Below, piece by piece: positions 1 through 53,793 of a stretch of DNA of 64,000 nucleotides (positions within the stretch are counted from its first letter, which is position 1; each line of letters opens with the position of its first letter). This DNA comes from Planctomycetaceae bacterium (GTDB taxonomy: Bacteria; Planctomycetota; Planctomycetia; Pirellulales; UBA7805), in the NCBI GenBank assembly GCA_902630355.1, contig CACOUL010000008.1, positions 1 to 64,000 of the forward strand. Direction: 5' to 3'. The position numbers were made by a program, and so were the translations under genes. The notes beneath the pieces are model-generated. The model saw only the letters and a program-made list of their open reading frames with translations, had not been told where the DNA came from and ran no database searches.

Positions 1-2178
1 TGCCGATACCCATTTACGTCCGCTCTTCTGCAAACCGAGGGATCGCAATTTGTCTTCGGCCAGAAATCGTAGCGCCGGTTGCCATGGCCCCAAGTCTTTT
101 TTGCTCAACGGTTTGACTTCTACCCCTAATTCATTTGCTGCCTTCAGTATCTCATCGTTGAGTTTATCGGTCGGCTTTTTTTTGTCTTTCTTGTTGTCGG
201 TGTCCTCATTTTTTCGAAGTGCATTGGCATACATCTGCTGTTCTTCAAGAATTGCGCGAGCTGCCATCGTCAGTGGGTCGAGCAGTGAATTACGGTCTTC
301 CTTCAGTTTATTCAGTTCTTCGCCCAGCTTCTCGCTTTGCGCATTGAGGGGAACGACCTGCTGCTGTGCTCGCTTAATGTCGGCCTCGCCCTTTGCCGCA
401 GCAAGCGTGTTTTGGATCATCTCATCAACCTGACGTTTATTTTTTTCGAGCTCTGGGATTTTGGCCCAGTTGCCTTTCTTTGCTGCCTTGTCGTAGTTTT
501 TCTTTGCTTGGTTAAAGTCCGCAGGAAGTTTTGGGTTCGTTTGAAAGGTCCACACCGGCTTTGTCTCTTCGCTCTTCCGGGGTTCTGCTCCTTCAAAGCC
601 CTGGTTCCGCAGGTAAGCGGCCGGGTCACTCTCGGCAGTGGGGATAATCGGCTGTGGCGGTAGTTCTGGTGAACTGGCGGATGGCTCTTCGCTTGCGGAT
701 GTGTTGTCCGCTGCGCCGGTTGATTGCGAATTGTTGTTTGTTAGTGGCGTCGAGGAGCCTTGCGTGGTGTCGTCGCTTTCGGGCGATGCGTCTTTAGGTG
801 CTGAAGAATTTGCCGCATTGCGGGGTTTCGCTTCTTCGAGTTTGCGGAGAATGAAATTTGCTTTTTCCCAGCTGAGTTCCTCGTCGGTGAGATCAATGTC
901 TCTGGTGCCGGGACGGAAGGTCGCCGGCGAAAATTGCTCGCCGTTCGGGTGGGTCGCAGCGAGTTTTGGCATGTCGGCCTTGAAAAACGGTATCTTCAAT
1001 CGGTAATTTCCCTCACTGTCGGTGAGGATCTTCGGCTCCTTGGGACTATGCTTTTCATCGCCATCGCGGTCGATGAATACGGTGATACCCTCATTCGATT
1101 CGCCCTCGGGTAAAACCTGTACCGTGCCAGTGATCGTGATTTTCTTTCGCGTCAGTTCCAACGGGATGTCAATCTCTTGGTCTTCTGCCGTCTCGATGTC
1201 GATGTCCACTGGTTTGACTCGTTGGTAGATGCCACTTCGTGGGAAGGAGACGATGAGTAACGGTACATCTTTCAAGCTAGCGGGAAACCGTACCTCGCGA
1301 AAACTGAATTTTCCACTCTCGTTGGCCGTCTGCTGTGGTTCGGTGCTTTGGGCCACTTCATCGGCGTTCAGGTCGATATGTACGCTGGCAGAGACTCCCT
1401 CTGCTTTCCCCTTTTGATCCTTGCCGAAGATGCGGCCTACGATTGCAAATTTTGGTTTTTCGCTGAGGTGAATTTCAACCGTGGGTCCCCAGATCGAAAA
1501 CCGACCGACGGTGACCGTCTCGGGTATCGCCCTGACAAAGTCGTATTTCGTCCCTTCTGTTACAGGTCGAATGTCCTTGCTTCCGGCCGGTAGAGTGAAT
1601 GCAACCGATCCATCGGCGCTGGTGGCAAACCCTTCGACATTCATCTCCGGGATCCCCTCCCCTTTATCGTAGATTCCGTTTCCATTTTTGTCTTCATACA
1701 CCCGCACGGTTGTCGGTTTTTCGCGGATCGCCAGCGCCGCAAGAATCACGATCAGGCCAATCAAGAGAAATATGACGGGGCGGATTATCTTCCCCAGCCA
1801 CGCCCCAGATTTTTCTTCGATCACCGGTACGCGCGAAGTTTCTGCGGGTGCGACCACGGTGGGTTGGCGGCCTGAGGCTGTGGGTGCCGCTTCCTGCTGC
1901 GCGCGGAGCTTTTTGTCGTACGCCTTTTTCTTTTCCTGATTGAGTAGAACCACGCGAGCCCGAGATATTTGCCCGAGCAGTTTTTGCGCTGCCTCGATGT
2001 GGTCGTCGCCTGAGGAGAGTTCCTGCAGATAGGCCATCTGCCGGTTGGCGGCGGCCTCAATGACTTGTCGATTGCTCTCGAAGAGTTCGATGCCCAGAAG
2101 ACGGTAGGCGTGCGCCGGTTGATCCCGCTTGGGGATTCCGAGCCATGTGTGGTAAGGATCGAACTTTTCTTCTGGCAT
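1..2178 (-). CDS. J-domain-like N-terminal membrane protein, paralogue 1 (partial; runs off the left edge); contains SdrD/Cna-B-like segments and a coiled coil
   Basis: Open minus-strand frame from ATG at 2178 to window position 1 (absent from ORF track because it has no stop in the window). N-terminus reads MPEEKFDPYHTWLGIPKRDQPAHAYRLLGIELFESNRQVIEAAANRQMAYLQELSSGDDHIEAAQKLLGQISRARVVLLNQEKKKAYDKKL; then hydrophobic VIFLLIGLIVILAAL; then YEDKNGNGIYDKGEG and FIDRDGDEKHSPKEP, SdrD-B-like loops. Confidence 0.85.
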   Translation of the reverse strand, partial: MPEEKFDPYHTWLGIPKRDQPAHAYRLLGIELFESNRQVIEAAANRQMAYLQELSSGDDHIEAAQKLLGQISRARVVLLNQEKKKAYDKKLRAQQEAAPTASGRQPTVVAPAETSRVPVIEEKSGAWLGKIIRPVIFLLIGLIVILAALAIREKPTTVRVYEDKNGNGIYDKGEGIPEMNVEGFATSADGSVAFTLPAGSKDIRPVTEGTKYDFVRAIPETVTVGRFSIWGPTVEIHLSEKPKFAIVGRIFGKDQKGKAEGVSASVHIDLNADEVAQSTEPQQTANESGKFSFREVRFPASLKDVPLLIVSFPRSGIYQRVKPVDIDIETAEDQEIDIPLELTRKKITITGTVQVLPEGESNEGITVFIDRDGDEKHSPKEPKILTDSEGNYRLKIPFFKADMPKLAATHPNGEQFSPATFRPGTRDIDLTDEELSWEKANFILRKLEEAKPRNAANSSAPKDASPESDDTTQGSSTPLTNNNSQSTGAADNTSASEEPSASSPELPPQPIIPTAESDPAAYLRNQGFEGAEPRKSEETKPVWTFQTNPKLPADFNQAKKNYDKAAKKGNWAKIPELEKNKRQVDEMIQNTLAAAKGEADIKRAQQQVVPLNAQSEKLGEELNKLKEDRNSLLDPLTMAARAILEEQQMYANALRKNEDTDNKKDKKKPTDKLNDEILKAANELGVEVKPLSKKDLGPWQPALRFLAEDKLRSLGLQKSGRKWVSA

Positions 2179-2289
2179 CTTTGCGCGCTCTCCTCTTCTC
2201 TGCCCATTTGATTCTAAATGATCGGACGGAAATGGAACACCGAATTCTGGCCAAATTCATTGCAAAAATCGCAGGACCATTGCCTTTAC

Positions 2290-3777
2290 TTATTTTATCG
2301 CTTCCAGGCTTCTCTGAACCTCTCTTGTCTTTTTTAGCAACTTGTCAGCTTTAACCATTTCTCGTTTGAGTTTTTCCGGAGATGTAGCGACTGCGAGTTG
2401 AAGACCGTTTGCCTTCACGAATCGATGTGTGTAGGGATGGTCAAGCAATGACGTGATTTTCTTGTTTTGCGTGCGGCACGCCTGGATATCGCCGTGAAAT
2501 GCTCGCAGTTGGATCACAATTTCATTTCTTTTCACCTTAAGAATCTTGCTGTTGGCATCGATGTTGCTTTGCGCCGAAGAAAGGTCTCTCTCAATTTTTT
2601 TGATCCGCTGCAACCGCGATGTGGCAGCCTCTTTTTTCGGCTTGAAATCTTTTTTCGCTTTTTCGGCGTTACGGAGTGTTTTGGTAAGCTTCTCCCGGGC
2701 ACGTAACAAAGATTGCGATTGCAGCAGGCTCTTCGCAAGCTTATTTTTTGACTTTTTAAGGTCTTCAATGCGCTTTTGCAGGTCGTCATGGATGCGGGGC
2801 GTCCAGCCGGTTTTTGTTTGCTCAAAATTACGCTGAAACCAATCGCGGAGATATTTCTCTTCGTTTGCTTTACGTTCTGCTTCTTGCCTAGTTCGCCGCT
2901 CAGACTCCCTTTTTATCTGCCGCTCGGTCTCCGCTTCGGCGATTCGCCTTGCCACTTCTTTTGCTCTTTGCTCCGCTTTTTCTTTCGCAATGCGTTCTGC
3001 TTCTGCTTTTTCTTTGGCTTTGCGTTCTGCTTCTGCTTTTTCTTTCGCTATGCGTTCTGCCTCGACTCGCGCTATTTCTGCTTCTGCCTTACGAGAATCT
3101 TCTTCTTTTACCGTATCGCGTTTATCAGTCTCGGATTGGCCGCGATCATCGATCGGCACCGACGTGGTGGGGCCGACCGAACCGACCTCACGCTTGGTGA
3201 TTTTGCCTTGATCGCGGCCAACACCCGCGATTAGCACCGTCAAAAAGAGCAGGATCGTGAAACTTGCCAGGAATAAAAGGAGGAATACCCTCGCTTTTGT
3301 TTTACGACCAACGGTTGTTGAAGCGATTTGCGCTCTTTCTTTTGCCGATTTGTTCTTCGGTTTCCAGTCGGGTAAATCGCTCTCTGCGGTCGATTCGGTT
3401 TTGATGACAGGTGCGCTTTTAGGAGCGGTAAACTCAAGGGTGGCAGCCAGACTGTCGGAGGGTGTTTCAGCGGCAGGTGTCGGTGTTTTCTGATCCGCGA
3501 TCTGCTGCTTCAGTTCCGCATCGTAGTTGGCTTTCTTCGCTGCATCGAGCAGGCAGACCCGTGCGGCGGCCACCTCATTGAGTAACTGCTGCGAGGTCTT
3601 GGCCCGTTCACCAGACTGCAGGGTGCGGAGATACTGCATCCGCTGATCGGCGGCCCCGGTGATCACATCGGGATCCTCTTCGAAGCGTTCGACTCCCAGC
3701 AACCGATAAAGATCAGCCGGTTGGTCTTTGAGTGGAATGCCCAGCCACTTGTGATAGGGGTTAAATTCGTCGCCCAT
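2290..3777 (-). CDS. J-domain-like N-terminal membrane protein, paralogue 2, with a long charged TolA-like helix
   Basis: ORF 2290..3798; start MGDEFNPYHKWLGIP at 3777 preferred by homology to the other paralogues. YRLLGVERFEEDPDVITGAADQRMQYL...YDAEL, TM VFLLLFLASFTILLFLTVLIAGV, then AEAERKAKEKAEAERIAKEKAE repeats. Confidence 0.85.
   Translation of the reverse strand: MGDEFNPYHKWLGIPLKDQPADLYRLLGVERFEEDPDVITGAADQRMQYLRTLQSGERAKTSQQLLNEVAAARVCLLDAAKKANYDAELKQQIADQKTPTPAAETPSDSLAATLEFTAPKSAPVIKTESTAESDLPDWKPKNKSAKERAQIASTTVGRKTKARVFLLLFLASFTILLFLTVLIAGVGRDQGKITKREVGSVGPTTSVPIDDRGQSETDKRDTVKEEDSRKAEAEIARVEAERIAKEKAEAERKAKEKAEAERIAKEKAEQRAKEVARRIAEAETERQIKRESERRTRQEAERKANEEKYLRDWFQRNFEQTKTGWTPRIHDDLQKRIEDLKKSKNKLAKSLLQSQSLLRAREKLTKTLRNAEKAKKDFKPKKEAATSRLQRIKKIERDLSSAQSNIDANSKILKVKRNEIVIQLRAFHGDIQACRTQNKKITSLLDHPYTHRFVKANGLQLAVATSPEKLKREMVKADKLLKKTREVQRSLEAIK
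3029..3107. repeat. 79-nt block identical to 4783-4861 (paralogue 2 vs paralogue 3)
   Basis: gcttctgctttttctttcgctatgcgttctgcctcgactcgcgctatttctgcttctgccttacgagaatcttcttctt read at both locations. Confidence 0.85.
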
Positions 3778-3800
3778 GGAGTTGCCCCTCGACACCAAGG

Positions 3801-5426
3801 TTATTTATTCTTTTTTTGATCTGGTTGATAAGCGTCTAATTTTTTTCTGGCTGCGGTAATCGCTGCCTGGCTGTGGCCGACTTTGGCCGGTTGAAGTTGT
3901 TCGAAAAAAAGTTGCCAGGCTTTCTCGCCGATTTTTCCCCGATAAGTCTGTTCCGCATTCCAGGGCACGCCTGCCGCCTCGTCATTTGTGGGGATGAAGT
4001 AAGCTTTCAGACGGGTCTGCTTTAAACCGAGCCTCATGTTTTCGACAGTTGTCTCAATAAGTGGTAATGAATATCCGGGATCGAGTACTTTTTGTCCCCC
4101 ATGTGCTATCGGCAAATTAGCTCTCCGCTGAGATTCTCTTGGCAATATGAAAAGGTCAGGAGCATCCCCCGACGCCATAGTTGCCTTGTCTACATGTACG
4201 ATCACGCTTTCCTTTTCGTTGATGATCAAAGCGGCGTAAAAATGTCCGGCCTTTTCACCCGGGATAACAGGTAGTTTTTTGGGGATCTCTTTTCTTAATT
4301 TCGAATCGGGTTTTTGAAGTGCTTTGACCGATTTATTGAGCTCGGTTGTCTTGACGTTGAATTTGCCCAGGGCGGCAGCAACATCAGGGTCTTCCAGCGC
4401 GGCCAATAAGTCTTCACGCACCGCCAATCGCATCGCACGGTTTTCAAAGCTCGCAAGCAGAAGCCTGTTGTATTCTTCAAGTTGTTGCTTGATTTGCACA
4501 TCATTTTGAGGGCGATTCTTTTGCCATAGCTTCCAAGAACTGATAAGTTCTTTTGTGACTAATTTGAGTTTCCATTCTTTGGCAAAGACCCACTTTTTCC
4601 CTTTTCGCTCAAAGCCCTTGCTTTCGAGTAGTTTTTCGGGATTGTCACGGAGTTCTTGCGCCTTGCGTGCTTCTTCTTCTTTGGCTTTGGCTTCTGCTTT
4701 TTCTTTCGCAATGCGTGCTTCTTCTTTGGCTTTGGCTTCTGCTTTTTCTTTCGCAATGCGTGCTTCTTCTTCTTTGGCTTTGGCTTCTGCTTTTTCTTTC
4801 GCTATGCGTTCTGCCTCGACTCGCGCTATTTCTGCTTCTGCCTTACGAGAATCTTCTTCTTGGGCCGTTTGGTCGTCGATAAATTGTAATGCCGCAAAAA
4901 TAGAGAGCGCCACGATTACGATCGCTGGCAGCACGATCCACAAGATGGATTGGCGTTTTTTTGTTTTCGTGCGACTGCCTGCGGGCGACCTGCCTTGCTG
5001 TGGCTTTGGCTTTGTTGCGACAGGCGAATCGTCACCGGTGGCAGGCCGGTTCGGAGTCGTTTTACCGATTTGCGGGGGCATGAGCGGGGCACTGCTGGCC
5101 GCCGGTTTCGGGGCTTGCGTCTCAGGGACCGGGGCCAGTGAGTCAAAGCCGGCCCGCAGCTTTTTGTCGTACGCCTTTTTCTTTTCCTGGTTCAGCAAAC
5201 AGACCCGCGCCCGAGAAAGCTCGCCCAAAAGCTGCTGGGCCTTATCGACATGGTCGTCGCCAGCCGAGAGTTCCTGCAGATACGCCATCTGCCGGTTGGC
5301 CGCCCCCTCGATCACCTCAAGGTTCGCCTCGAAAAGTTCGATGCCCAGCAGCCGGTAATGATGCGGCGGCTGATCCTCGGGGGGGATGCCGAGCCAGATA
5401 TAATAGGGATCAAACGAGTCGCTCAT
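3801..5426 (-). CDS. J-domain-like N-terminal membrane protein, paralogue 3, with charged-helix repeats
   Basis: ORF 541 aa; MSDSFDPYYIWLGIPPEDQPPHHYRLLGIELFEANLEVIEGAANRQMAYLQELSAGDDHVDKAQQLLGELSRARVCLLNQEKKKAYDKKL; TM ILWIVLPAIVIVALSIFAAL; AKEKAEAKAKEEEARI repeats. Confidence 0.87.
   Translation of the reverse strand: MSDSFDPYYIWLGIPPEDQPPHHYRLLGIELFEANLEVIEGAANRQMAYLQELSAGDDHVDKAQQLLGELSRARVCLLNQEKKKAYDKKLRAGFDSLAPVPETQAPKPAASSAPLMPPQIGKTTPNRPATGDDSPVATKPKPQQGRSPAGSRTKTKKRQSILWIVLPAIVIVALSIFAALQFIDDQTAQEEDSRKAEAEIARVEAERIAKEKAEAKAKEEEARIAKEKAEAKAKEEARIAKEKAEAKAKEEEARKAQELRDNPEKLLESKGFERKGKKWVFAKEWKLKLVTKELISSWKLWQKNRPQNDVQIKQQLEEYNRLLLASFENRAMRLAVREDLLAALEDPDVAAALGKFNVKTTELNKSVKALQKPDSKLRKEIPKKLPVIPGEKAGHFYAALIINEKESVIVHVDKATMASGDAPDLFILPRESQRRANLPIAHGGQKVLDPGYSLPLIETTVENMRLGLKQTRLKAYFIPTNDEAAGVPWNAEQTYRGKIGEKAWQLFFEQLQPAKVGHSQAAITAARKKLDAYQPDQKKNK
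4672..4800. repeat. Imperfect in-frame tandem repeat (ctttggctttggcttctgctttttctttcgcaatgcgtgcttctt units) encoding charged helix AKEKAEAKAKEEEARI
   Basis: About three successive near-identical units visible in the sequence and in the translation. Confidence 0.75.
4783..4861. repeat. 79-nt block identical to 3029-3107
   Basis: Same string as above, by eye. Confidence 0.85.
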
Positions 5427-5542
5427 CGCACGCAGACCCTAAAAATTTCCCAAAAAAGGAGTGCCCTCAGTCTAACGCAATCGGGCCATTCTGCAAAGCA
5501 ACAGCGGGCGGCCGAGTAGCGAGAACCGATAGTGGTTGCCCT

Positions 5543-7543
5543 CTATTGGGCGAGACGGGCTGTTTGGGTGTCGAATGCCTTGCGGTATCCAGCAATCTTT
5601 TTGCCGATCGCCTTGATGCTTGCGGCATCTTTCTTGTGCTCTTCTTCTGAATACTCCGGTTTTTCGGTTGCCTGTTGAAACGTCGTTTCGAGCCGTTTGA
5701 GGCTTTCGGACAACACTTTTGTTTCCGGCCAGCTATCGGGCCTGGGGCGTGAAGCGAGCTCTTTTTGTTTTTGTTTTAGTGGGTTCGACAGTTGTTTTTC
5801 GATTTCCTTGCCAAATGCTATTTTCTGCTCCCCTTCCTGCATCGAATCCAAGCGTGTGGTTGCCTGAAGGAGCGTTCTTTCCAGGTTTTTGATCTCCTTG
5901 GAAAGTGTTTTTTTCGCTTTGCTGTATGCTTTGGCCTTCTTGTTAAACCTGCCGAGTGATTTCTTGGTCTCTTTTTCCTGTTCGGTGAGCTTCTCCTTGA
6001 GCTGGGCGAAGCTCAAGGTGGGCTGGGGCTTGGCCGGTTTTTTGGGCTTATCGCCACCTTTGCTCTCCTCCGAAGGATCGCCCTGAGGGTCGGCGTCATC
6101 TACGGAATCAGTGGGAGGCGAATCGGTAGAGGCGAACTGCGTCGACTCAGACCCGGTCGATTCGGGTAGTGGGGGCGGCTCGGCTAGCTTGCCGCCGGCC
6201 TTTTCGAGCAGGCCTGTTACTTCCGGGTCGGCAGCCAGTTCGGCGTAACGCGCACGAATATCCTTGACGAGTCCCACCTCCGCCGGGTTGGCCGTTGCCG
6301 GCTCGCGAGAGGCGAATTCCTGCTCTACCTGCGTTCTAATGCTAGTGATTTCGGGGATGCTGTCTTTTACTCTCATATGTGCTGGGTTATAGGGAAAAAA
6401 AATTTTTCCTTGCAGCTGGTTGTACTCTTTATCTAGTGCATTGCTTACACCCGCTGGCTGATTACGGACATACTTCCACCGTTCGAGAATCTCGTTCTTC
6501 TTTGCATCCACGCGTCGCTTTAGCTCGGCTTCAAACTCGGCGCCTCCTGCGGTGCCGCTCGACCCCGATGTCCGTACTGCTTCGAGATTCCGCGTCTGGT
6601 CGTTGGCGAGGTGCCAGGTATGCTCGAAGGCATCTTCCTCGAGCTCGTACTGGTTTTGCAGACGCTCGCGAGCGTTCTCTTCCTCAGACAATTCTGGTTC
6701 TGAATCAGGCGGCACCGTCTCCAGCGAGGCTGAGGTATCCGGTTTTTTCTGCGCCGGTTCCTGCGTAGAAGCCGTTTGCGGATTTTCAGATTTTTTTACC
6801 TCTTCCCTTACGGGTGCCTCGGGCGTTTTGTCTGGTTTCTTTTTGTTCTGCGGTGGCTCTTTCCCGATATCGGGTATTTCAACCGAGCTTGCGTCGCGAT
6901 TGTTTGCCGAAGTTTTTCGGGATTTCGCGGTCGTTTTACCGCCCTTCTCCCCGCTGGGGATGAGCAGTACGAGGATGATCAATAGAACGAGTGCCCCTGC
7001 AGCGATGGGCAGCCAGATTTTTAAGGCCGGATTGGAGGCCGCCTTGGCCGATTCGCCATCCGAAGCGGTCCGTGCTTTCCTCGCGGTTCCCTTTCGTCGC
7101 CCCGCACTGCGACGACGTGTCGTTGTTTTTTTCGGGCCGCTACTCGCTCCTCCCGTTGCCCCGGTACCAAAATTGGGAAGATCCCCGGCCGCCTCTTCGT
7201 CATTCCCTGTCCCGAAATCTTGAGGCAAGAAGCCCTGCGGTTCGTCGTCCTCGTCTTCCGCTTCGATTTCTTCTTTGAGCTTTGAGTCGTACCTCGCCTT
7301 ACTCTCGGCTGCCAGCAGACACACCCGCGCCTTGGCGACCTCACCGAGCAGTCGCTGGGCCTGATCGACATGGTCGTCGCCGGCCGAGAGTTCCTGCAGA
7401 TACGCCATCTGCCGGTTGGCCGCCCCCTCGATCACCTCCCTGTTCTCTTCAAAGAGCTCGACGGCGAGTAACCGGTAGTGATGGGGCGGTTGATCCTTCG
7501 GAGGAATGCCCAGCCACGTGTAATAAGGATCGAAATCGGCCAT
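5543..7543 (-). CDS. J-domain-like N-terminal membrane protein, paralogue 4, with coiled-coil C-terminus
   Basis: ORF 5543..7627; start MADFDPYYTWLGIPPKDQPPHHYRLLAVELFEENREVIEGAANRQMAYLQELSAGDDHVDQAQ at 7543 matches paralogue N-termini; TM IWLPIAAGALVLLIILVLLIP. Confidence 0.85.
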   Translation of the reverse strand: MADFDPYYTWLGIPPKDQPPHHYRLLAVELFEENREVIEGAANRQMAYLQELSAGDDHVDQAQRLLGEVAKARVCLLAAESKARYDSKLKEEIEAEDEDDEPQGFLPQDFGTGNDEEAAGDLPNFGTGATGGASSGPKKTTTRRRSAGRRKGTARKARTASDGESAKAASNPALKIWLPIAAGALVLLIILVLLIPSGEKGGKTTAKSRKTSANNRDASSVEIPDIGKEPPQNKKKPDKTPEAPVREEVKKSENPQTASTQEPAQKKPDTSASLETVPPDSEPELSEEENARERLQNQYELEEDAFEHTWHLANDQTRNLEAVRTSGSSGTAGGAEFEAELKRRVDAKKNEILERWKYVRNQPAGVSNALDKEYNQLQGKIFFPYNPAHMRVKDSIPEITSIRTQVEQEFASREPATANPAEVGLVKDIRARYAELAADPEVTGLLEKAGGKLAEPPPLPESTGSESTQFASTDSPPTDSVDDADPQGDPSEESKGGDKPKKPAKPQPTLSFAQLKEKLTEQEKETKKSLGRFNKKAKAYSKAKKTLSKEIKNLERTLLQATTRLDSMQEGEQKIAFGKEIEKQLSNPLKQKQKELASRPRPDSWPETKVLSESLKRLETTFQQATEKPEYSEEEHKKDAASIKAIGKKIAGYRKAFDTQTARLAQ

Positions 7544-7660: not shown

Positions 7661-9364
7661 TTAGCCCAGGATTTCGCGTTTGCGCTCCAAATAGTCCCAG
7701 ACCACGAACCGGTCGAGGTCACTTCCGGCAGTAAAGAACACGCGGCCCTCGGTCGATTCGGCCACGCGGTAGGCGAAGCGGATATCTTCCTCGGATTGCG
7801 ACCAGCTCGGAATGAGGAAAAAGTTGATCGTGATCCCCTCCTGTTTACAGAGCAACGCCTCGCGAAGCGTCGCTTCTTCGGTCAGTACATCGGGGGGATA
7901 GAGCAGGTAGAGCCACTCCTGGTCGTAATGGGCTGTTGGCAGTCCATCGGTGATCAGCACAATCTGCCGGTTCGGCGTATCGCGGCCCGCCAGATTCATG
8001 CGGGCGAGTTGCAGCGCGTGCTGGATGTTGGTGAAGTGGGGCGGGAGTTGCACCTCACTCACCTCAGGCCGCGACATATCGATCCGGTACCGGACCACCG
8101 GATCGGTGATCGTTACCGGTTTGGGCATCAGGTCAATGATTTGATTGGCTCGGCAGGGCGCAGCGTGGGTGAACATCTCGAAAAAGCCGAGCCAATCGCC
8201 CGGATACTCGCGCGTGATCAGCCCCTGCAGCGCAAGGGCCATTTTTTTCACGTTGATGTATTGTCCCTCGTAGCGCATGCTGCCGCTCATGTCCATGATC
8301 ACCGCCGTGGCGCACTTGGGCGTGTTGCGGGTCCGGTGCACCACAATGTCATCCGCCGTAAGCCGCAGCGGCTCATTCCGCGATTGGGATCGCAGAATTG
8401 CGTTGGTAAACGACTGGGGGATGTCCATCTGGGTGATGCTGTCGCCAAAGGTGTAAGGGCCGGTGCTTTGCAGCTCGACACTCCCTTCTCCGGCTACCTC
8501 GGTTTGATGGCGACCGGTTCGTGAGGGATCGAGTTTGGCAAAAATCCGCTCAAGCAGTTTGCCCTGAAAAATACGATACGCCTCCGGTCCCAACTCGATC
8601 TTTCCCTCGGCGCTCAATAGCCCCTGCTCTTCGGCCATCTGTTTCAAGTATTCGCCGACCTGCTGCTGAAGATTTTCCAGTTCCGTAAGGTCGGCGTCTT
8701 CCACAAACTCGGCGAGCGCTTCGGTGTCGATCACGTAAATCTGTCCGTTTTGCTCCGCCTCCTCGAGTTGTTTGAGCAATTCGTCGATTCGCTCGAGTTC
8801 CGCTTTGATTTCCAGGGCACGCTCTGCTGTGACCCGCTCGGTGCCGGTGAACGCATAGCGGGATACCAGTTCCTCGAGCTGATACAGCACGCCCAACGAC
8901 TCGATCAGCCCGACCAGACGACCCGCCGCCGGGTGCGTTTGGCGATCGAGGCGATACCAGAGTCGCTCGAGGTCATAGAGTTGACGCTCCTGCATCGAGT
9001 TTTCAAAAAATCGGTGCTCCTTGGCCGGCAGCCGTACCCCCTCGGCCTCCCGATCGCAGCTTTCGTTCGTCTCCCGCAGCGCCGTTTCAACTTCGTAGGT
9101 AGCTAAGATTTTTGCCTTCCGCTCCTCAAGCAAGCGGCGGAGTGCCTCAAGGCTCGGGCCCATTCCGGCAATTTGACTCGGATCAATGCGGATCGCTCGG
9201 GCCAGTTCCTCTTCCGAGAGTCGGCGGCGGTTGCCCCAGGCAAGCATGTGCTCAAACGCGCCCGAAACCATATCGGGTGGCGGGCTGGTGGGACTCGGGA
9301 AGCGACCGGGATCGTACCGCTGGTACGTGTGAATCACGCCTCCGGGACCGCGACGCCGTTTCAT
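7661..9364 (-). CDS. VWA-domain protein, partner of upstream MoxR-type ATPase
   Basis: ORF 567 aa; MIDAS motif [15 protein letters not shown]; overlaps upstream ATPase stop by 4 nt (ATGA). Confidence 0.85.
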
Positions 9365-10797
9365 GGGGTTTCCTCATCACCGATCTGATAGGCGATCCGG
9401 CCGTGCTGCTGATGGCGGGAAATTTTGTCCATGGCGTAGAGACCGGCCAGCACAAATTCAACGCAACTCGCCCGTACCGCATCGCTCCGGGCCGCGTTGA
9501 CTTCGAACGCTTTTTCCCAGATCGGCGGCACTCGGGTCAATCGCTCGGCGTACACGCTTGAAGGCAACATGTCGCCGACTTCGATCCGCACGCCCCGAGA
9601 GAAGATTTCGGCAATTTCACCTAGGCCGTGCGCCTCGACGTATTCTTCAAAAACCGTAGCGATGGCGGTTGCCAGAATGTGCTCGAGTACCTGCTCTTCG
9701 CTCATCTGCTGGCTTCCCATCAGGTCGAGTTCCAATTTTCCCAGGCCGCTGCTCTCGAGGTGGGCAAGATCGCTGATCCGCGGTATGGCCGGCGATTCGC
9801 CATGCAGGATGGATCGCCGGCGGGCACTGGCGATCATCGTGCGATAGTTGGCCAACGAAAATCGTACGCTCACCCCCGATTGCTGATCGACGTACTTGCT
9901 CCGGCGGGCCTCGAGCGTGATCTGCTCGATCAATTCACGCATGAAGCGAGGGACCTCAACCGGATGCGCATCTTCGCGCGAGTCCGCCGTTTCCTCGGCG
10001 GTGATTTCGATGGCCAGTTCCCGATCGCGCGGATAATGAGTGCGAATTAGCGAACCGATCCGATCCTTCAATTGGGGAATCACCTTGCCGCTACGGTTGT
10101 ACGTTGCAGGATTGGCAGAAAAGAGAACGCACACGTCAATGTCGAAGCGAATCGGGTAGCCGCGGATTTGAACATCGCGCTCTTCTAAAATGTTGAACAG
10201 CCCGACCTGCACTAACTCGTCGAGTTCAGGAAGCTCGTTCATCGCAAAGATGCCGCGATGCATGCGAGGGATCAAACCGAAGTGCAGGGCATCCTCCGCA
10301 CCCATCGTGACCCCCGCAACGAGTTTTGCCGGATCAATTTCACCGATCACATCCGCAAATTTGGTTCCCGGGGCGAGTCGCTCGGTGTAGCGGTCCTCCC
10401 GCGGCCACCACGCGATTGGAACTTCGCTCTCATCGCGCCCCGCAAGCCACGCCTTCGCCATTTGGGTGATCGGTGCATAGGGATCTTCGTGAAGCGGGCA
10501 TCCCGGAATCTCAAGATAGGGGATCTCAGGATCGAGAAAGCGGACGAGACTTCGCATAATCCGGCTTTTCGCCTGCCCCTTCTCTCCGAGAAACAACATG
10601 TCGTGACCGGCAAGCATCGCCAGAATCACTTCAGGAATCACCGTCTCCTCATAGCCGACGATGCCGGGGAAGAGTTCTTCGCCCCCCTCGAGCGCACGGA
10701 TCATCCCCTGACGGAGTTCCTCCTTGACGGTGCGCGATTGCCAGGGAGTGTCTCGTAGTTCTGCGAGCGTTTGCGGTCGTGTTGCAGTCGCCATCAA
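9361..10797 (-). CDS. MoxR / Mg-chelatase-type AAA+ ATPase
   Basis: ORF 478 aa; Walker A-like [16 protein letters not shown]; Walker B-like [40 protein letters not shown]. Confidence 0.85.
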
Positions 10798-17224: not shown

Positions 17225-19150
17225 CTATCGCGTCCCTTTCTCGGTTTGATCCGCTTGGCTCGCGGTCCTGCCTCCGTAAATCGGTAGGAACCGGTAGTAA
17301 ACTTCCAGGCAGAGGGTGGCCATGGCCGTGGAATAAACGCGGCCCCCGTGCGGTCCCCACTCGGTATCGGGCGACCAACTGCCCCTTAGCGGACCGCTCT
17401 GCTGCTGCGTTGCCAGGAGTGTCGTCTGCAGCGCCTGGTTCCACTCCTCCCAGAGCACGTCCTGTCGCTGATAGAGTGCGAGGGTTGCGTAGTACCAGGC
17501 GTACAAATTCATCCGTCCGCTCGCACTGGCCCGCGGCGGATCGGCAAGCAAGTAAGCAGCCGCTTCATTGGCCGCCGGATCGGTGGGTCTGGTGCCGGTG
17601 AAGAGGCGGCAGAAAAGTGCTTCGGCCGTCATTGCCGGGCTCGGGGGTTTGCCCGGCCGGTAAGTGGCGATCCCGCCCGCCTCGCCCGAGGAGACGTAGG
17701 AGAGGAATCGTGTAACGCCCTGCTTTGCCCGCAGCGGCACCGGGATTCCCGCCAACTCGGCGCTTTTAAGTGCCATCACCTGCCAGCCCAACTGACTCGT
17801 ATCGCCCGTGTCGCTCGGTCGATACCGCCAACCGCCCGTCTGTCGATTCTGGCTCTGGAGGGTGAAGGCAATGGCCCGCTCGGCGTAGGGTCGTAGCCGC
17901 ACGTCGCCCGTCATGCCGTACGCTTCGCAGAGGGCAAAACTCGCCATACCGTGGCAGTACATCGCTGCAAACAGGGTGGAGTCCCCAGCGAGCGATCCAT
18001 TTTTGCGTTGATGCGAGGCAAGGTATTCCAGTCCTCGCTTCACGTGGTCTTGATAAGGCCCCGGTTTCATATGGGTGTGTCCGCTGCCGAGAAACGCCAG
18101 CAGCGCCAAGGCCGAGACCCCGGTCTGCGCTCGCATCCCGGCGCGGCGGCGGTGGTGATCGCTCGAGGGTCGGTCGCGTCCGCCCTGCCACCGCGAGGGG
18201 TCCCAACTGCCGTCTTGTCCTTGTGCCGATGCGAGCCAGGCAAGGCCGGACTCGACCGCCTCCTCCGCTTCCGGGCTTCCACCAAAGCGGCCCGCTTGCC
18301 GAGCGCGGTCCTCTGCGCTGCGCAGGCGATACAACTCGGGAAGCTGATGTCCTCCCGGCGTCTGCGCCGCCGGCACACCTTCCCCGGCCGGTGGACGTTC
18401 GATCTTCACCAGTTTAGGCCGGTCATCTTCAGGGGCGGGAGCCTCGGGCTTTGCGTCGGGGAGTTGGGCGAGTTGCAGTGGGGCTGCGGCGGGAATTGCG
18501 CTCGGCTTCAAACGGGCCACAAGCGGCGGACGCTCTGCCACAGGGGCCTCCTCCGCATCCTTCAGCGCAATGGATTCGGGCGGTTGCTCGGCGATCCGTT
18601 CGGGCCCGTCGATCGCCGTCGGTCGTGGGCGCGACGGGGTCGCGGCGAGGGGGCGACCGGTCTGCGGCGCGGCGGCAGCCACCGGTGCGGCCGCCTGCAG
18701 GTTAGCGGGCACGAGCGGCCGCTCGGCAGAGTTTTGTTCGGGAGCGGCGGGCACATAATCGGTTTCAGGTACCTCTGCCTCATCCATCCGTGGGACCGCC
18801 AGGGGCGGAATTTCGCCCGCCGTTCCCGGAAACTGCTGCCACGGTTTGTCGGGCCGGGCCGGTTCGATCGTGCCGAGAAACGCATCGCCCAGGGCCACCT
18901 CGACCACCTCACCCTCCAAGCCGGTTGCGTTTCCGGCAATCCGAATCGTGGCGGCATAGCCGGCCAACAGCAGGTGCGCGATGAGTGAAAGGATCACGCA
19001 GATCCGCATCGGTCGGCTGCGACCCCAGCGGGTCAGCAGCAGCCCGATGAGGGCCGCGATCGAGCCGAGCAGGAGCACGAGCCAAAGGACGACCCAGGCG
19101 GCGTGGATCGAGCCGACAGGAAGTGCTGCGATGAAAAACAACGGGTTCAT
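17225..19150 (-). CDS. Membrane-anchored prenyltransferase/squalene-oxidase-repeat protein
   Basis: N-terminal TM segments, Pro/Ala-rich linker, then ESGLAWLASAQGQDGSWDPSRWQG, GLEYLASHQRKNGSLAGDSTLFAAMYCHGMASFALCEAYG repeats. Confidence 0.82.
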   Translation of the reverse strand: MNPLFFIAALPVGSIHAAWVVLWLVLLLGSIAALIGLLLTRWGRSRPMRICVILSLIAHLLLAGYAATIRIAGNATGLEGEVVEVALGDAFLGTIEPARPDKPWQQFPGTAGEIPPLAVPRMDEAEVPETDYVPAAPEQNSAERPLVPANLQAAAPVAAAAPQTGRPLAATPSRPRPTAIDGPERIAEQPPESIALKDAEEAPVAERPPLVARLKPSAIPAAAPLQLAQLPDAKPEAPAPEDDRPKLVKIERPPAGEGVPAAQTPGGHQLPELYRLRSAEDRARQAGRFGGSPEAEEAVESGLAWLASAQGQDGSWDPSRWQGGRDRPSSDHHRRRAGMRAQTGVSALALLAFLGSGHTHMKPGPYQDHVKRGLEYLASHQRKNGSLAGDSTLFAAMYCHGMASFALCEAYGMTGDVRLRPYAERAIAFTLQSQNRQTGGWRYRPSDTGDTSQLGWQVMALKSAELAGIPVPLRAKQGVTRFLSYVSSGEAGGIATYRPGKPPSPAMTAEALFCRLFTGTRPTDPAANEAAAYLLADPPRASASGRMNLYAWYYATLALYQRQDVLWEEWNQALQTTLLATQQQSGPLRGSWSPDTEWGPHGGRVYSTAMATLCLEVYYRFLPIYGGRTASQADQTEKGTR

Positions 19151-49575: not shown

Positions 49576-50616
49576 ATGAGCAGTTCGTCCGATGAAACGA
49601 TCGTTCAACTTGTATCGGCACGCGAAAAAATTCAATCGCGACTCGCCGAAAAGATTGTGGGCCAGGATGCGGTGGTCGAGGAGTTATTGATCACGCTCTT
49701 CAGTCGAGGCCACTGCCTTCTCGAGGGGGTTCCGGGGCTCGCCAAGACGCTCATGATCCGGACACTCGCCGATGCACTCGATCTCTCCTTCAATCGAATT
49801 CAATTTACGCCCGATCTGATGCCTGCCGACATCACCGGCACGGAGATCATTGAAGAAAACAAGGCATCGGGTGCGCGGGAGGTGCGTTTTTTACAGGGCC
49901 CGCTCTTCAGTCACGTGGTGTTAGCCGACGAGATCAACCGTACGCCACCCAAGACGCAGGCGGCGCTCCTTGAGGCAATGCAAGAAAGGCAAGTGTCGAT
50001 CGGTCGAGTTCAGCATCCGCTTGCCGATCCCTTTTTTGTTTTGGCAACGCAGAATCCGATTGAGCAGGAGGGGACCTATCCTCTCCCCGAGGCGCAGCAG
50101 GACCGCTTCATGTTCAAGGTTTTTGTCGACTACCCGAACTTCGAAGAGGAATTTGAAATTGCGAGAAGAACAACCGGGGATGTCGAAGCCTCGATTCAGC
50201 CCGTCCTCACGGCAGAGGAAATCCTTGAACTGCAACAGCATGTTCGTCGCGTGCCGGTTTCGGATCACGTGGTGCGATATGCCCTTTCGCTGGTACGACA
50301 AACGCGCGTCGGGGAGGTTGGCGTTCCGGAGTTTGTAGCAGATCAGGTCAGTTGGGGTGCGGGGCCTCGGGCGGTTCAGTTCTTGATTCTCGGCGGCAAA
50401 GCACGGGCACTGATGCACGGTCGCGCGCATGTGTCGACCGAGGATATTCAGGCATTGGCCCGCCCCGTGCTGCGACACCGCCTTGTCGTGAATTTTACGG
50501 CGCAAAGTGAAGGAGTCACCGAAGATGACATCATCAAGCGCCTCATCGAAGAAACGCCCGCCAAAGAGGACGAATTGACTAGCCATGCCCGATTCCAGGA
50601 AATATTTGCATCCTGA
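49576..50616 (+). CDS. MoxR family AAA+ ATPase
   Basis: [75 protein letters not shown]. Confidence 0.95.
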
Positions 50617-51487
50617 GTCGATTGCCCGGATCGCTCGCCTCGAATTGCGTGCCCATCGTGTGGTGGAGGGGTTTCTTTCGGGAATTCACCGCAGTCCACG
50701 CTTTGGTCAATCGGTCGAGTTTTTGCAGCATCGACAATACTTTCCCGGCGATGACTTGAGGCACGTCGACTGGAAAGTCTGGGCCAAGCAGGATCGCCTG
50801 TACGTCAAGCAGTTCGAAGAAGACACGAACATGCACGTGACGCTGCTGGTCGATGGCTCGGCAAGCATGCAGTACGGATCCGGTCCCCTTAATAAATACG
50901 ACTACGCTTGCACGGCGGCCGCCAGTCTGGCCTACCTTCTCCTGCGGCAGCAGGACTTGGTTGGTTGTGTGGCCTTCGACGAGCGGATGCGATCTCGCGT
51001 GCCGGCGCAGAGCAAAAAAAATCATCTCGACGCGATTGTTCAGGCGCTCGCGGCAGATGAGCCGGAAGAAAAGACCGATTTTTATCCCTTTCTGCGCCAG
51101 GTTGCAGAGGAGACACCGCGACGCGGCATGATGATCCTGTTCTCCGACCTGTTGGCCGATACGGAGGGCCTGCTCCGCGGCCTGAAACTCCTGCGGAAAC
51201 GGGGGCACGACGTGATGGTTTTTCACATTCTCGACGACGATGAAATCGATTTTCCCTTCCAGGGGCCCACGCGGTTTGAGGGACTCGAGTTGCCCGCTGC
51301 CCTCGCGTGCAATCCGCGAGCGCTGCGCAACGGATACCTCGGGGCGCTTGAGGATTTTCTCCATCGCGTGCGTCGCGGGTGTACCAGTAATGCGTGTGAT
51401 TATGAATTGATTCGAACCAGTCAGCCGCTGAGTGCGGTTTTGGCGGCATATTTACATCGGCGCACAGGGCTCCAGCGACAAACCTGA
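50585..51487 (+). CDS. DUF58 domain protein
   Basis: [63 protein letters not shown]. Confidence 0.93.
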
Positions 51488-51531
51488 GGCATCCCTCGCA
51501 CCTGCACCCCTGCACCATTACAAAGACAAAG

Positions 51532-53784
51532 ATGAATTTTACTTTTCCATCGCTGATTTCCGTTTACCTCCTGCCCTTTCTGGCAGTGGTTCTGGCGATC
51601 CATCTGATCCACCTCCTCCGGCATCGCCGGGTGCGCTGGGCAGCGATGGATTTTCTTCTGGAAAGCAAGAAGAAAAACCAGACTTCCGTTCGCCTCAAGC
51701 AACTCCTTCTGCTTCTCCTGCGACTGGCTGCGATCGCGATGATCATTTTTTTGCTCGCCGGACCGATTTTGCAGGATGCGTGGAGTCGATTGCTCGGCGG
51801 CACCAATGTGCACCATGTGATTTTGCTTGACGACAGCGCTTCGATGACCGACCGGGAAGAGAGTGCCTCGGCCTTTGAACGCGGCCAACGGGTTGCGGGG
51901 AATATTGTCGACCTGGCAGCCGGGCGAGACTCACAGCAAGCAATCACACTGATGACCTTTTCCTCTGCTGCGGATGAAAGTTCACCGGAAATTCTTCGGA
52001 AGGTCGCCTCGCGAAGAACAGCACCGCAGTGGAAAGAGCGGATCAGTCAGCAGCGTGCTACCGCGCTCGGTGTGGGTCCGCTTGAGGCTCTTGAGGGCAT
52101 CGAGAGAAAAATCGTTCCGGCACAAGATGAAAAAATGATTCTCTACGTGCTCTCCGATTTTCGCGCCCCGCAGTGGCAGGAGAGTGCGGCACTGCGTCAG
52201 CAGGCGGAGCGGCTGTCGGGGAACGATATTCAACTGGAATTGATTCAGTGTGCGAAGGGGCCCCACCAGAATCTGGCGATCACCCAACTTGTCGCAATGC
52301 CGGGGCCGCAGGTAGTCGATATTGCCGTTCGCATGCGGGTCGTGGTCACTAATTATGGAAAGACGCCACAGAGAAATGTATCGGTTCAACTGAGTCAGCA
52401 GACTGTCACCGAAGAGGGGCGCACTGCGCCCGAATCGCTCGGGGGGGTCACGCTTGAGAAAATCGATCCGGGCACGTCGGTCGAGGGTTTCTTCGATGTG
52501 ATCTTTCAAGATCCGGGGAGTCACCTGGTCCATGCCCGCATTAATCAAGATGCCGTCTCTCTCGATAATCATCGCTGGGCCGTGATCGACATTTCGCAGG
52601 GCGCACCGGTACTTGTGATCGACGATGGCGGAGAAGATGCCTCCCTTTTTCTCCGTTTGGCGCTCGATCCCAATCCTCAGGTGAGTACCGGCGCACAGGT
52701 CCAGGTCGAGCGATCAAGCTTTCTTCGCGACGCCGCCTTGGATCGTTATCACGCCATCTTTCTGCTCAACATTACGGACCTGGACGAGATCGAGGTGGAG
52801 CGACTCGATCAGTATGTCCGCCGCGGAGGCGGGATCGTCTTTTTTGCCGGCCCTCAAACCGACCGGGATTTCGTCAATCTGGAACTCTATCGGGATGGCG
52901 AGGGTTTCTTTCCGTTGCCGCTCGCTTCCCCGGCGACGCTGCTACTGGATCGAGCTGAGGCGAGTGCCGATATCGAGGTCGATGCGGAGCATCCGGTTTT
53001 TTCGCGCATTTTCGGAACGTCGATGAATAATTGGTTGCAGGCAATCGACGTTTCGCGTTATTACGCGACCGAAGCGGGTTGGAGTCCCGAGGAGAGCCCC
53101 CTGGTGAAGATCCTGGCACAGCTTCGGGACGGCGCACCGTGGATTGTTGAAAAGAGTTGGGGAGAGGGGAAAGTCCTGGCCGTTCTCTCGACTGCAGCAC
53201 CGCGGTGGCATAACTGGGGGTTGGCCGACCCGAGTTTTGTCTTGTGGACCCTCGATACGCTGGTCTATTTGGGATCGACCAAAACGCAGCAGGACAATCG
53301 AACGGCAGGTGAGAGGCTGCGCGTCGAAACACCGCCGACCGCCTTTTTGCCGTTGGTGAGTTTCACTGCACCGGGCACCGGAGCAGACGGACAACGCGAA
53401 ACGACGCAAATCGCGGCGATCGGTGAAGGACCCGATTCGACAGAGCGGGTTGCCGATTTTGGCCGCGTCGATCGGCCGGGGGTTTATGAGGTCCGGCGCA
53501 ATCAACTCGATGGCGGTGTTGTCCTCGACTGCGAGGCGTTCCATGCCCCCGAGAGCGAAAGCGATCTGGCCATTTTTGGCGAGGGCCAGATGCGAGGTTT
53601 GCTCAAACAAGTGCCCTACAACTATCGCCCTGCCGATACCTTTTTTTCTCTCCTCGCGAAACGAGGCCGGTTTTCCACTCGCGGAGCAATGGTGGATATT
53701 CCTGATTCTGGCTTTGCTATTGGTGGTCGAGCAGTGGATTGCCTACGGCGCGAGTTACCACCCTTCGATCCCGAAAAGACGTGA
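51532..53784 (+). CDS. BatA-domain / VWA membrane protein
   Basis: N-terminal MNFTFPSLISVYLLPFLAVVLAIHLIHLLRHRRVRWAAMDFLL; HHVILLDDSASMTDRE MIDAS motif. Confidence 0.87.
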   Translation: MNFTFPSLISVYLLPFLAVVLAIHLIHLLRHRRVRWAAMDFLLESKKKNQTSVRLKQLLLLLLRLAAIAMIIFLLAGPILQDAWSRLLGGTNVHHVILLDDSASMTDREESASAFERGQRVAGNIVDLAAGRDSQQAITLMTFSSAADESSPEILRKVASRRTAPQWKERISQQRATALGVGPLEALEGIERKIVPAQDEKMILYVLSDFRAPQWQESAALRQQAERLSGNDIQLELIQCAKGPHQNLAITQLVAMPGPQVVDIAVRMRVVVTNYGKTPQRNVSVQLSQQTVTEEGRTAPESLGGVTLEKIDPGTSVEGFFDVIFQDPGSHLVHARINQDAVSLDNHRWAVIDISQGAPVLVIDDGGEDASLFLRLALDPNPQVSTGAQVQVERSSFLRDAALDRYHAIFLLNITDLDEIEVERLDQYVRRGGGIVFFAGPQTDRDFVNLELYRDGEGFFPLPLASPATLLLDRAEASADIEVDAEHPVFSRIFGTSMNNWLQAIDVSRYYATEAGWSPEESPLVKILAQLRDGAPWIVEKSWGEGKVLAVLSTAAPRWHNWGLADPSFVLWTLDTLVYLGSTKTQQDNRTAGERLRVETPPTAFLPLVSFTAPGTGADGQRETTQIAAIGEGPDSTERVADFGRVDRPGVYEVRRNQLDGGVVLDCEAFHAPESESDLAIFGEGQMRGLLKQVPYNYRPADTFFSLLAKRGRFSTRGAMVDIPDSGFAIGGRAVDCLRRELPPFDPEKT

Positions 53785-53793
53785 GGGTGAGAG

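Follow-up and report, generated by a model that had tools for sequence, protein, structure and literature searches.

To our knowledge, the histidine-proline-aspartate (HPD) triad of the J-domain and the arginine by which Hsp70 reads it count as universal features of the J-domain/Hsp70 cycle. Between DnaJ and DnaK, D35 of the triad bonds R167, H33 reaches the linker backbone (L391), and P34 makes contact with P419 (PMC8215388). In laboratory R167D DnaK, domain communication is disturbed and stimulation is not effective (PMC7289447). DnaK R167H suppresses DnaJ D35N (PMC7289447, PMC5519331), DnaK R167A restores function with DnaJ D35N (PMC13012618), and replacement of P34 lengthens helix II in a simulation study (PMC13012618). 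In laboratory work, altering HPD or R167 can compensate for a change in its counterpart; in the present case evolution appears to have altered both. Our subject is a family of J-like membrane proteins represented by four consecutive genes, W1 to W4, at the start of a 64,000-nucleotide stretch of a Planctomycetaceae genome (the window; G000:C8:1-64000, where G labels genomes, G000 being this one, and L labels fetched loci).

We consider it probable that the proteins carrying the shared module are J-like receptors anchored in the membrane, which recruit an Hsp70 that is dedicated to them and rewired. Computed directly were the J fold, the absence of HPD from the window proteins, their single transmembrane (TM) helix, the genetic linkage of the family to Hsp70 genes, and the correlation between HPD loss and R167 loss.

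A module of J-domain descent

An earlier note on the window had proposed a tandem array of four minus-strand genes sharing a J-like module without HPD, each with one hydrophobic helix and then an unrelated tail. The array and the module stand: 40 of 97 columns are invariant in the first ~95 residues of the four proteins, and the W1–W3 modules are 48–74% identical to that of W4. Each protein runs from the ~95-residue module through a low-complexity linker to a single hydrophobic helix, found in all four by a hydropathy scan, and on to the tail. Because the module profile matches seven places in G000 at E 8e-16 to 4e-54, the similarity within the array is far beyond chance. The W1, W2 and W4 modules are sisters and recent relatives; W3 belongs to a different branch of the family. 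Gaps of about 115, 23 and 110 bp separate W1/W2, W2/W3 and W3/W4, respectively. The window begins at base 1 of a 98,693-bp contig in an assembly of 2.56 Mb (70.5% complete), and the 3' end of W4 is missing because the contig start cuts the gene. The tails mostly differ, as proposed, but W2 and W3 share a charged EEDSRKAEAEIARVEAERIAKEKAEA helix encoded by a common 154-bp stretch (88% identical). The SdrD-B likeness suggested for the W4 tail is a partial, 25-residue match to PF17210 at 17.6 bits, against a Pfam cut-off of 29.7.

The AlphaFold2 model of the W1 module (predicted local distance difference test score, pLDDT, 95.5; predicted template modelling score 0.85) has helices at residues 6–11, 22–25, 35–52, 59–77 and 79–94. 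Its top 39 Foldseek matches in the PDB were all J-domain structures, with a probability of 1.00 and TM-scores of 0.65/0.86 to 6rzy. Profile comparisons gave the same picture: nearly all PDB matches of a 100-member family profile were J-domains (best E 0.001), and hhalign aligned the family with 19 true J-domains, from DnaJ of E. coli and of planctomycetes, at E 2.3e-6 and probability 89. In the reverse search, the family profile picked up HPD-bearing DnaJ at E 1e-5 to 1e-6. The window modules alone stay below the cut-off of Pfam DnaJ (PF00226), which is exceeded by three divergent members (G013:C1:3399103, G012:C96:5720 and G017:C11:11679), and HPD was not found in any of these three.

Module and J-domains have the YxLLG and YD landmarks in common, and the conserved family lead-in FDPYxxWLGIPxxxQPP has no counterpart in canonical J-domains. 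Helix II continues through the HPD region. HPD occurs in none of the 100 members of alignment A2; in the family, the tripeptide was seen only in modules of G119, in the loop between helices II and III. Pfam, NCBIfam and PADLOC hold no model for the module, the PADLOC and NCBIfam matches looking like coiled-coil noise. Two results that would have counted against the earlier proposal, the lack of a J-like fold and the identity of the module with an already characterised named domain, were looked for, and neither was found. We conclude that the module descends from a J-domain, the Hsp70-activating helper domain, and has lost its key HPD triad.

Twenty relatives were sampled, and a wider sampling covered other classes of the planctomycete phylum. 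All 20 relatives have a module match, with 1–19 copies per genome (that of G015 is weak and degenerate), and divergent members extend to the other classes. The tandem expansion noticed in the window recurs in G126, G119 and G012. So far the family has been found only in planctomycete bacteria, the genomes searched being planctomycete.

Linkage to Hsp70s without arginine 167

A module out of contact with Hsp70 was our first working idea, dropped once the Hsp70 linkage and the change at residue 167 emerged. That a loss of HPD implies a loss of Hsp70 is not supported: family members adjoin a dedicated Hsp70 that lacks the HPD-reading arginine. One class-wide subfamily joins the module to MshEN (PF05157, E 1e-15 to 1e-19), a family of domains that bind cyclic di-GMP (c-di-GMP), often with a C-terminal TM helix; it includes a member in this genome (L161, G000:C60:1-2651) and L197–L209. 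In 14 of 14 loci examined, the J-like/MshEN gene lies downstream of an Hsp70 gene on the same strand. The Hsp70 of this cassette has ~525–570 amino acids and matches PF00012 at E 1e-110 to 1e-122 (three scanned). In this genus the J-like/MshEN protein has no TM helix, and OmpH-like, LpxC and LpxA-like genes lie downstream of it.

Searching the relatives with the cassette Hsp70 yielded further paralogues adjoining other J-like genes. Of 80 loci fetched blindly by module, 14 had an Hsp70 within 6 kb, where 0.53 would be expected by chance (P 1e-15). In the 20 relatives, where a few clade members were assigned by score rather than by residue 167, a module lies within 5 kb of 12 of the 12 cassette Hsp70s (0.16 expected) and of 7 of the 35 other Hsp70s with a residue other than arginine at 167 (non-R; 0.52 expected), and of none of the 22 R167-type Hsp70s. 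The linkage recurs in distant classes (G053, G119, G120, G134, G059, G123 and G093). Genomes with more modules tend to have more non-R Hsp70s (copy-number rho 0.81, the same after correction for genome size; 0.50 for the R-type control), with P values that are optimistic since the genomes are related. A search for natural J-like/Hsp70 fusions in a single open reading frame (ORF) found none.

Residue 167 was aspartate in all 46 first-aligned sequences of the module-linked Hsp70 clade; over 94 Hsp70 sequences it was D in 58, R in 22, G in 8, S in 1, K in 1 and unread in 4, G or S occurring in other classes. In the 39 distinct gene pairs less than 1.5 kb apart, the Hsp70 was non-R every time (D 35, G 2, S 2). 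Since 39/39 linked Hsp70s are non-R and 0/22 of the R167 type is adjacent to a module, we conclude that the losses of HPD and of R167 go together. R and non-R Hsp70s also separate in a FastTree phylogeny (support 98–99), in which the lone K sequence has a long branch close to the R side. In E. coli, HscA and HscC retain R at this position.

The clade has kept the catalytic residues D8, G10, K70, E171, D194 and T199. It lacks the alpha-helical lid (the alpha part of the substrate-binding domain, SBD-alpha), cassette Hsp70s ending at ~520 amino acids. Its linkers are polar, VLLLDV being replaced by, for example, MQIKNV or LLVKNV, and DVxPLS by NVNSHS. Only residue 167 and the linker separate the non-R from the R group: N481, considered as a distinguishing residue, is present in both. 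An inverted interface read from Hsp70 charge changes at 208, 211 and 217 was likewise rejected, because R167-type planctomycete DnaKs also lack the 209–212 loop and carry R217.

Position 50 of the module, mostly R, K or Q, is never acidic in alignment A2 and is E in 4 of 215 members of a wider set. Beside D167 Hsp70s it is R or K in 27 of 35 modules, and beside G/S167 Hsp70s Q in 4 of 4 (Fisher p 0.006, uncorrected for kinship). A swap of charges would fit this pattern; we treat it as a hypothesis and not a result, because the alignment of position 50 with HPD may be off by up to some four residues. It is conceivable, though doubtful, that the D35/R167 contact became one between R/K/Q50 and D167, giving a second, orthogonal Hsp70 network in which neither partner works with canonical DnaK/DnaJ and up to 19 membrane receptors per genome compete for the chaperone.

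Two further observations concern the C-termini of D167 Hsp70s. Those of L244, L043, L046 and L164 have an acidic disordered tail closing in a conserved short motif resembling DL..FLxxL, possibly the counterpart of the EEVD-type docking motif. In L098:6663-10586, the Hsp70 shares its reading frame with a C-terminal squalene-cyclase-like region, a domain type also found in the window gene at 17225-19150.

Putative receptors, their predicted partner and rival readings

Topology was assessed on the 111 family proteins longer than 150 amino acids, a set in which a few loci are held twice: 97 have one TM helix, 7 have two and 7 have none, and the flank before the helix is the more positive in 78 and the less positive in 21, a positive-inside bias. 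The module is N-terminal. Domains of cytosolic type stand before the TM helix or in proteins without one (Ser/Thr kinases in L083 and L028, an FHA-kinase in L048, an FtsK motor in L100), whereas LamG/ConA-like domains, in 16 of 69 scanned tails, lie in the region after the module, as do LRR, NPCBM and FGE domains. Because the former lie before the helix or in TM-less proteins and the lectin-like domains after the module, an N-in topology fits and is the one we infer. The survey bears out the earlier picture, in which one conserved cytosolic adaptor is combined with varying partners. The L100 protein (L100:254-2647) carries a full FtsK motor (alpha, motor and gamma domains) and no predicted TM helix. 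L159:6117-7460, on contig C1 of this genome, ends in an AMPK/CBM48-like glycogen-binding match that falls slightly short of the curated cut-off. The contig with the J-like/kinase/PEGA protein of L083 carries the label Candidatus Nealsonbacteria and is probably planctomycete DNA binned wrongly.

W1–W4 would accordingly span the inner membrane once, with the module in the cytosol. There it would dock on a lidless Hsp70 with an NVNSHS linker in which R167 has become D or, more rarely, G or S. Each membrane protein would thereby direct one type of ATP-driven chaperone to its own location. The module would supply the Hsp70, and where or when it acts would depend on the tail or, in relatives, on a c-di-GMP-binding, kinase, FHA or FtsK domain. 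The system would use the Hsp70 ATPase cycle, the module either stimulating the putative ATP hydrolysis or merely tethering the chaperone.

Two Hsp70s only are assembled in G000, at C60 and at C10:57126, both D167. The latter has a 654-amino-acid frame and the linker LLVKNVNSH. In the module tree, W1, W2 and W4 have as sister a group that includes the modules of L037 and L043. At each of these loci an Hsp70 directly adjoins the module gene, and the two Hsp70s cluster with the C10 Hsp70 (support 89–94 at the forks). Because the module and Hsp70 trees agree through L037 and L043, the C10 Hsp70 is the predicted, and the most likely, partner of W1, W2 and W4; the Hsp70 of the J-like/MshEN cassette at C60 is a second candidate. 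In its AlphaFold model, the C10 Hsp70 consists of a nucleotide-binding domain and SBD-beta, one short helix, a disordered acidic tail (516–633) and a short terminal helix. The model superposes on ATP-state DnaK, including J-bound 5nro (2.7 Å over 541 columns).

Several observations weigh against recruitment of an Hsp70. There is no Hsp70 gene in the window or beside the array, so the partner is deduced from relatives. Only R167-type DnaK was found in G017, G019 and G126 (95–99% complete, with 3, 2 and 6 modules), and likewise in G020, G057, G070 and G135, each with a single weak module. Among D167 Hsp70s, many lack an adjoining module. The HPD/R167 pattern has an exception in G012:C249 (L264), where an HPD-bearing DnaJ gene stands beside two D167 Hsp70s, and the G119 modules with HPD in the II–III loop adjoin a D167 Hsp70. 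Gene neighbourhood, moreover, is association and no proof of binding or activity.

Genomes with modules and no non-R Hsp70 would be at home in a different account, in which the module is a J-derived scaffold that homo- or hetero-oligomerises membrane proteins out of touch with Hsp70, much as HPD-less Pam16 pairs with Pam18, and the nearby Hsp70s only fold or insert coiled-coil proteins. The loss of HPD and the frequent coiled coils in the tails suit it too, and HPD-less J-like proteins that partner other J-proteins are described in the literature. Such a scaffold nevertheless leaves unexplained why the neighbouring Hsp70s have lost precisely the HPD-reading arginine (39/39) and why R167-type DnaK never adjoins (0/22), and we judge it improbable.

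The array follows a MoxR-type ATPase gene and a vWA gene in a possible operon order (Table 1), and the module might anchor this AAA+/vWA pair at the membrane, as the naming of MoxR as a possible partner in the earlier note implied. The order is limited to G000 and one congener: J-like genes flank the vWA gene in only 2 of the 12 genomes with a vWA match, and G004, at 99% completeness, carries five modules but lacks a vWA orthologue. Synteny in the relatives led us to reject MoxR/vWA as the general partner; recruitment of the pair is unlikely as a family-wide role, and as an account of the module we find it very hard to sustain. Nor does the module behave as the conserved third component of the MoxR-vWA ternary systems (PMC7159879), given the 2 of 12 genomes and a bpMoxR match below cut-off. 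A second MoxR/vWA cluster, of a common type, occupies 49576-56352 of the window, where a MoxR ATPase, a DUF58-like protein and two large vWA-like membrane proteins stand in a row (ORFs only).

That the module is just an N-terminal membrane-targeting or insertion signal of planctomycete single-pass proteins agrees with its position and with a TM helix in about 94% of members above 150 amino acids, but it is a folded J-like domain, occurs on proteins without predicted TM helix (the FtsK fusion L100, the FHA-kinase L048) and would leave the Hsp70 linkage unexplained, so that we give this idea almost no credence.

Table 1. Features of the W1–W4 array and the two genes next to it, in window coordinates
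Feature	Coordinates	Strand	Basis
W1: J-like module, TM helix, coiled-coil/charged tail; 666 amino acids	5543..7543	-	
W1 J-like module	7259..7543	-	profile; AlphaFold pLDDT 95.5
W1 residues 50-54 (QELSA), stretch with the HPD equivalent, exact register uncertain	7382..7396	-	alignments, column statistics
W1 TM helix, residues 176-194	6962..7018	-	hydropathy scan
W2: J-like module, TM helix, TolA-like charged helix, C-terminal domain without family match; 541 amino acids	3801..5426	-	
W2 J-like module	5142..5426	-	profile, alignment
W2 TM helix, residues 161-179	4890..4946	-	hydropathy scan
W3: J-like module of another family branch, TM helix, charged helix as in W2, coiled coil; 495 amino acids	2290..3777	-	
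W3 J-like module, R at position 50	3496..3777	-	profile, alignment
W3 TM helix, residues 165-183	3229..3285	-	hydropathy scan
W4: J-like module, TM helix, beta-rich tail (SdrD-B match below cut-off), coiled coil; incomplete at the 3' end	1..2178	-	
W4 J-like module	1888..2172	-	profile, alignment
W4 TM helix, residues 131-149	1732..1788	-	hydropathy scan
vWA-domain protein directly upstream of the array; possible operon mate	7661..9364	-	VWA_2 E 4e-5
AAA+ ATPase of MoxR/ChlI type, overlapping the vWA gene	9361..10797	-	

Comparison with described chaperone systems

In the literature searched, which covered few subscription papers, we found no publication describing a pair of HPD-less J protein and R167-less Hsp70. 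Published work on the proteomes and essential genes of planctomycetes (PMC8567305, PMC10632474) does not mention DnaJ, and a survey of DnaK duplications (PMC11019930) does not mention planctomycetes. The altered pair would occur in a widespread bacterial lineage, with an expanded set of membrane receptors built on the result. If binding were shown, nature would have supplied an experiment on which elements of the Hsp70 switch are indispensable, orthogonal chaperone pairs would become available, and there would be a first clue to the function of a family that no searched library names and that has up to 19 copies per planctomycete genome.

The planctomycete proteins share with DnaJ/DnaK the J fold, the YxLLG and YD landmarks, an adjoining Hsp70 gene, the Hsp70 catalytic residues and the docked-domain fold. 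They differ in having no HPD, and in an Hsp70 with D, G or S for R167, NVNSHS for DVxPLS and no lid; the modules add an N-terminal helix (FDPYxxWLGI), a TM helix and variable domains. J-like proteins of the Pam16/Tim16 type also combine a J fold without HPD with a membrane-associated role. Pam16 pairs with the HPD protein Pam18 and canonical mitochondrial Hsp70, whereas here the Hsp70 itself is altered at the HPD-reading residue.

HscC of E. coli with DjlB and DjlC resembles the planctomycete system as a specialised Hsp70 whose dedicated J-proteins are tied to membrane functions, and its D211 loop is deleted, as in the planctomycete Hsp70 clade (PMC8215388). HscC, however, has R at 167, DjlB and DjlC are classed as J-domain proteins (PMC8215388), and there is no expansion into many membrane receptors. 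The PilZ-DnaKs CsdK1 and CsdK2 of Myxococcus xanthus (PMC10313047) are unusual Hsp70s tied to c-di-GMP, as the J-like/MshEN cassette appears to be, with the c-di-GMP domain on the Hsp70 there and on the J-like partner here. GAP1-N2 systems with HSP70, GrpE and FNIII-DnaJ fuse a surface-protein-like architecture to a DnaJ domain with linked HSP70; they are reported mainly from actinobacteria and firmicutes, with GTPases, and no pairing of HPD-less J with R167-less Hsp70 is described for them (PMC7159879). Set beside these systems, the planctomycete one would work like a J-protein/Hsp70 pair and yet, as its sequences read, depart from one in both HPD and R167, two defining features whose losses are correlated. 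Collectively, our results suggest that a second network of chaperones exists, rewired and, it seems, so far undescribed.

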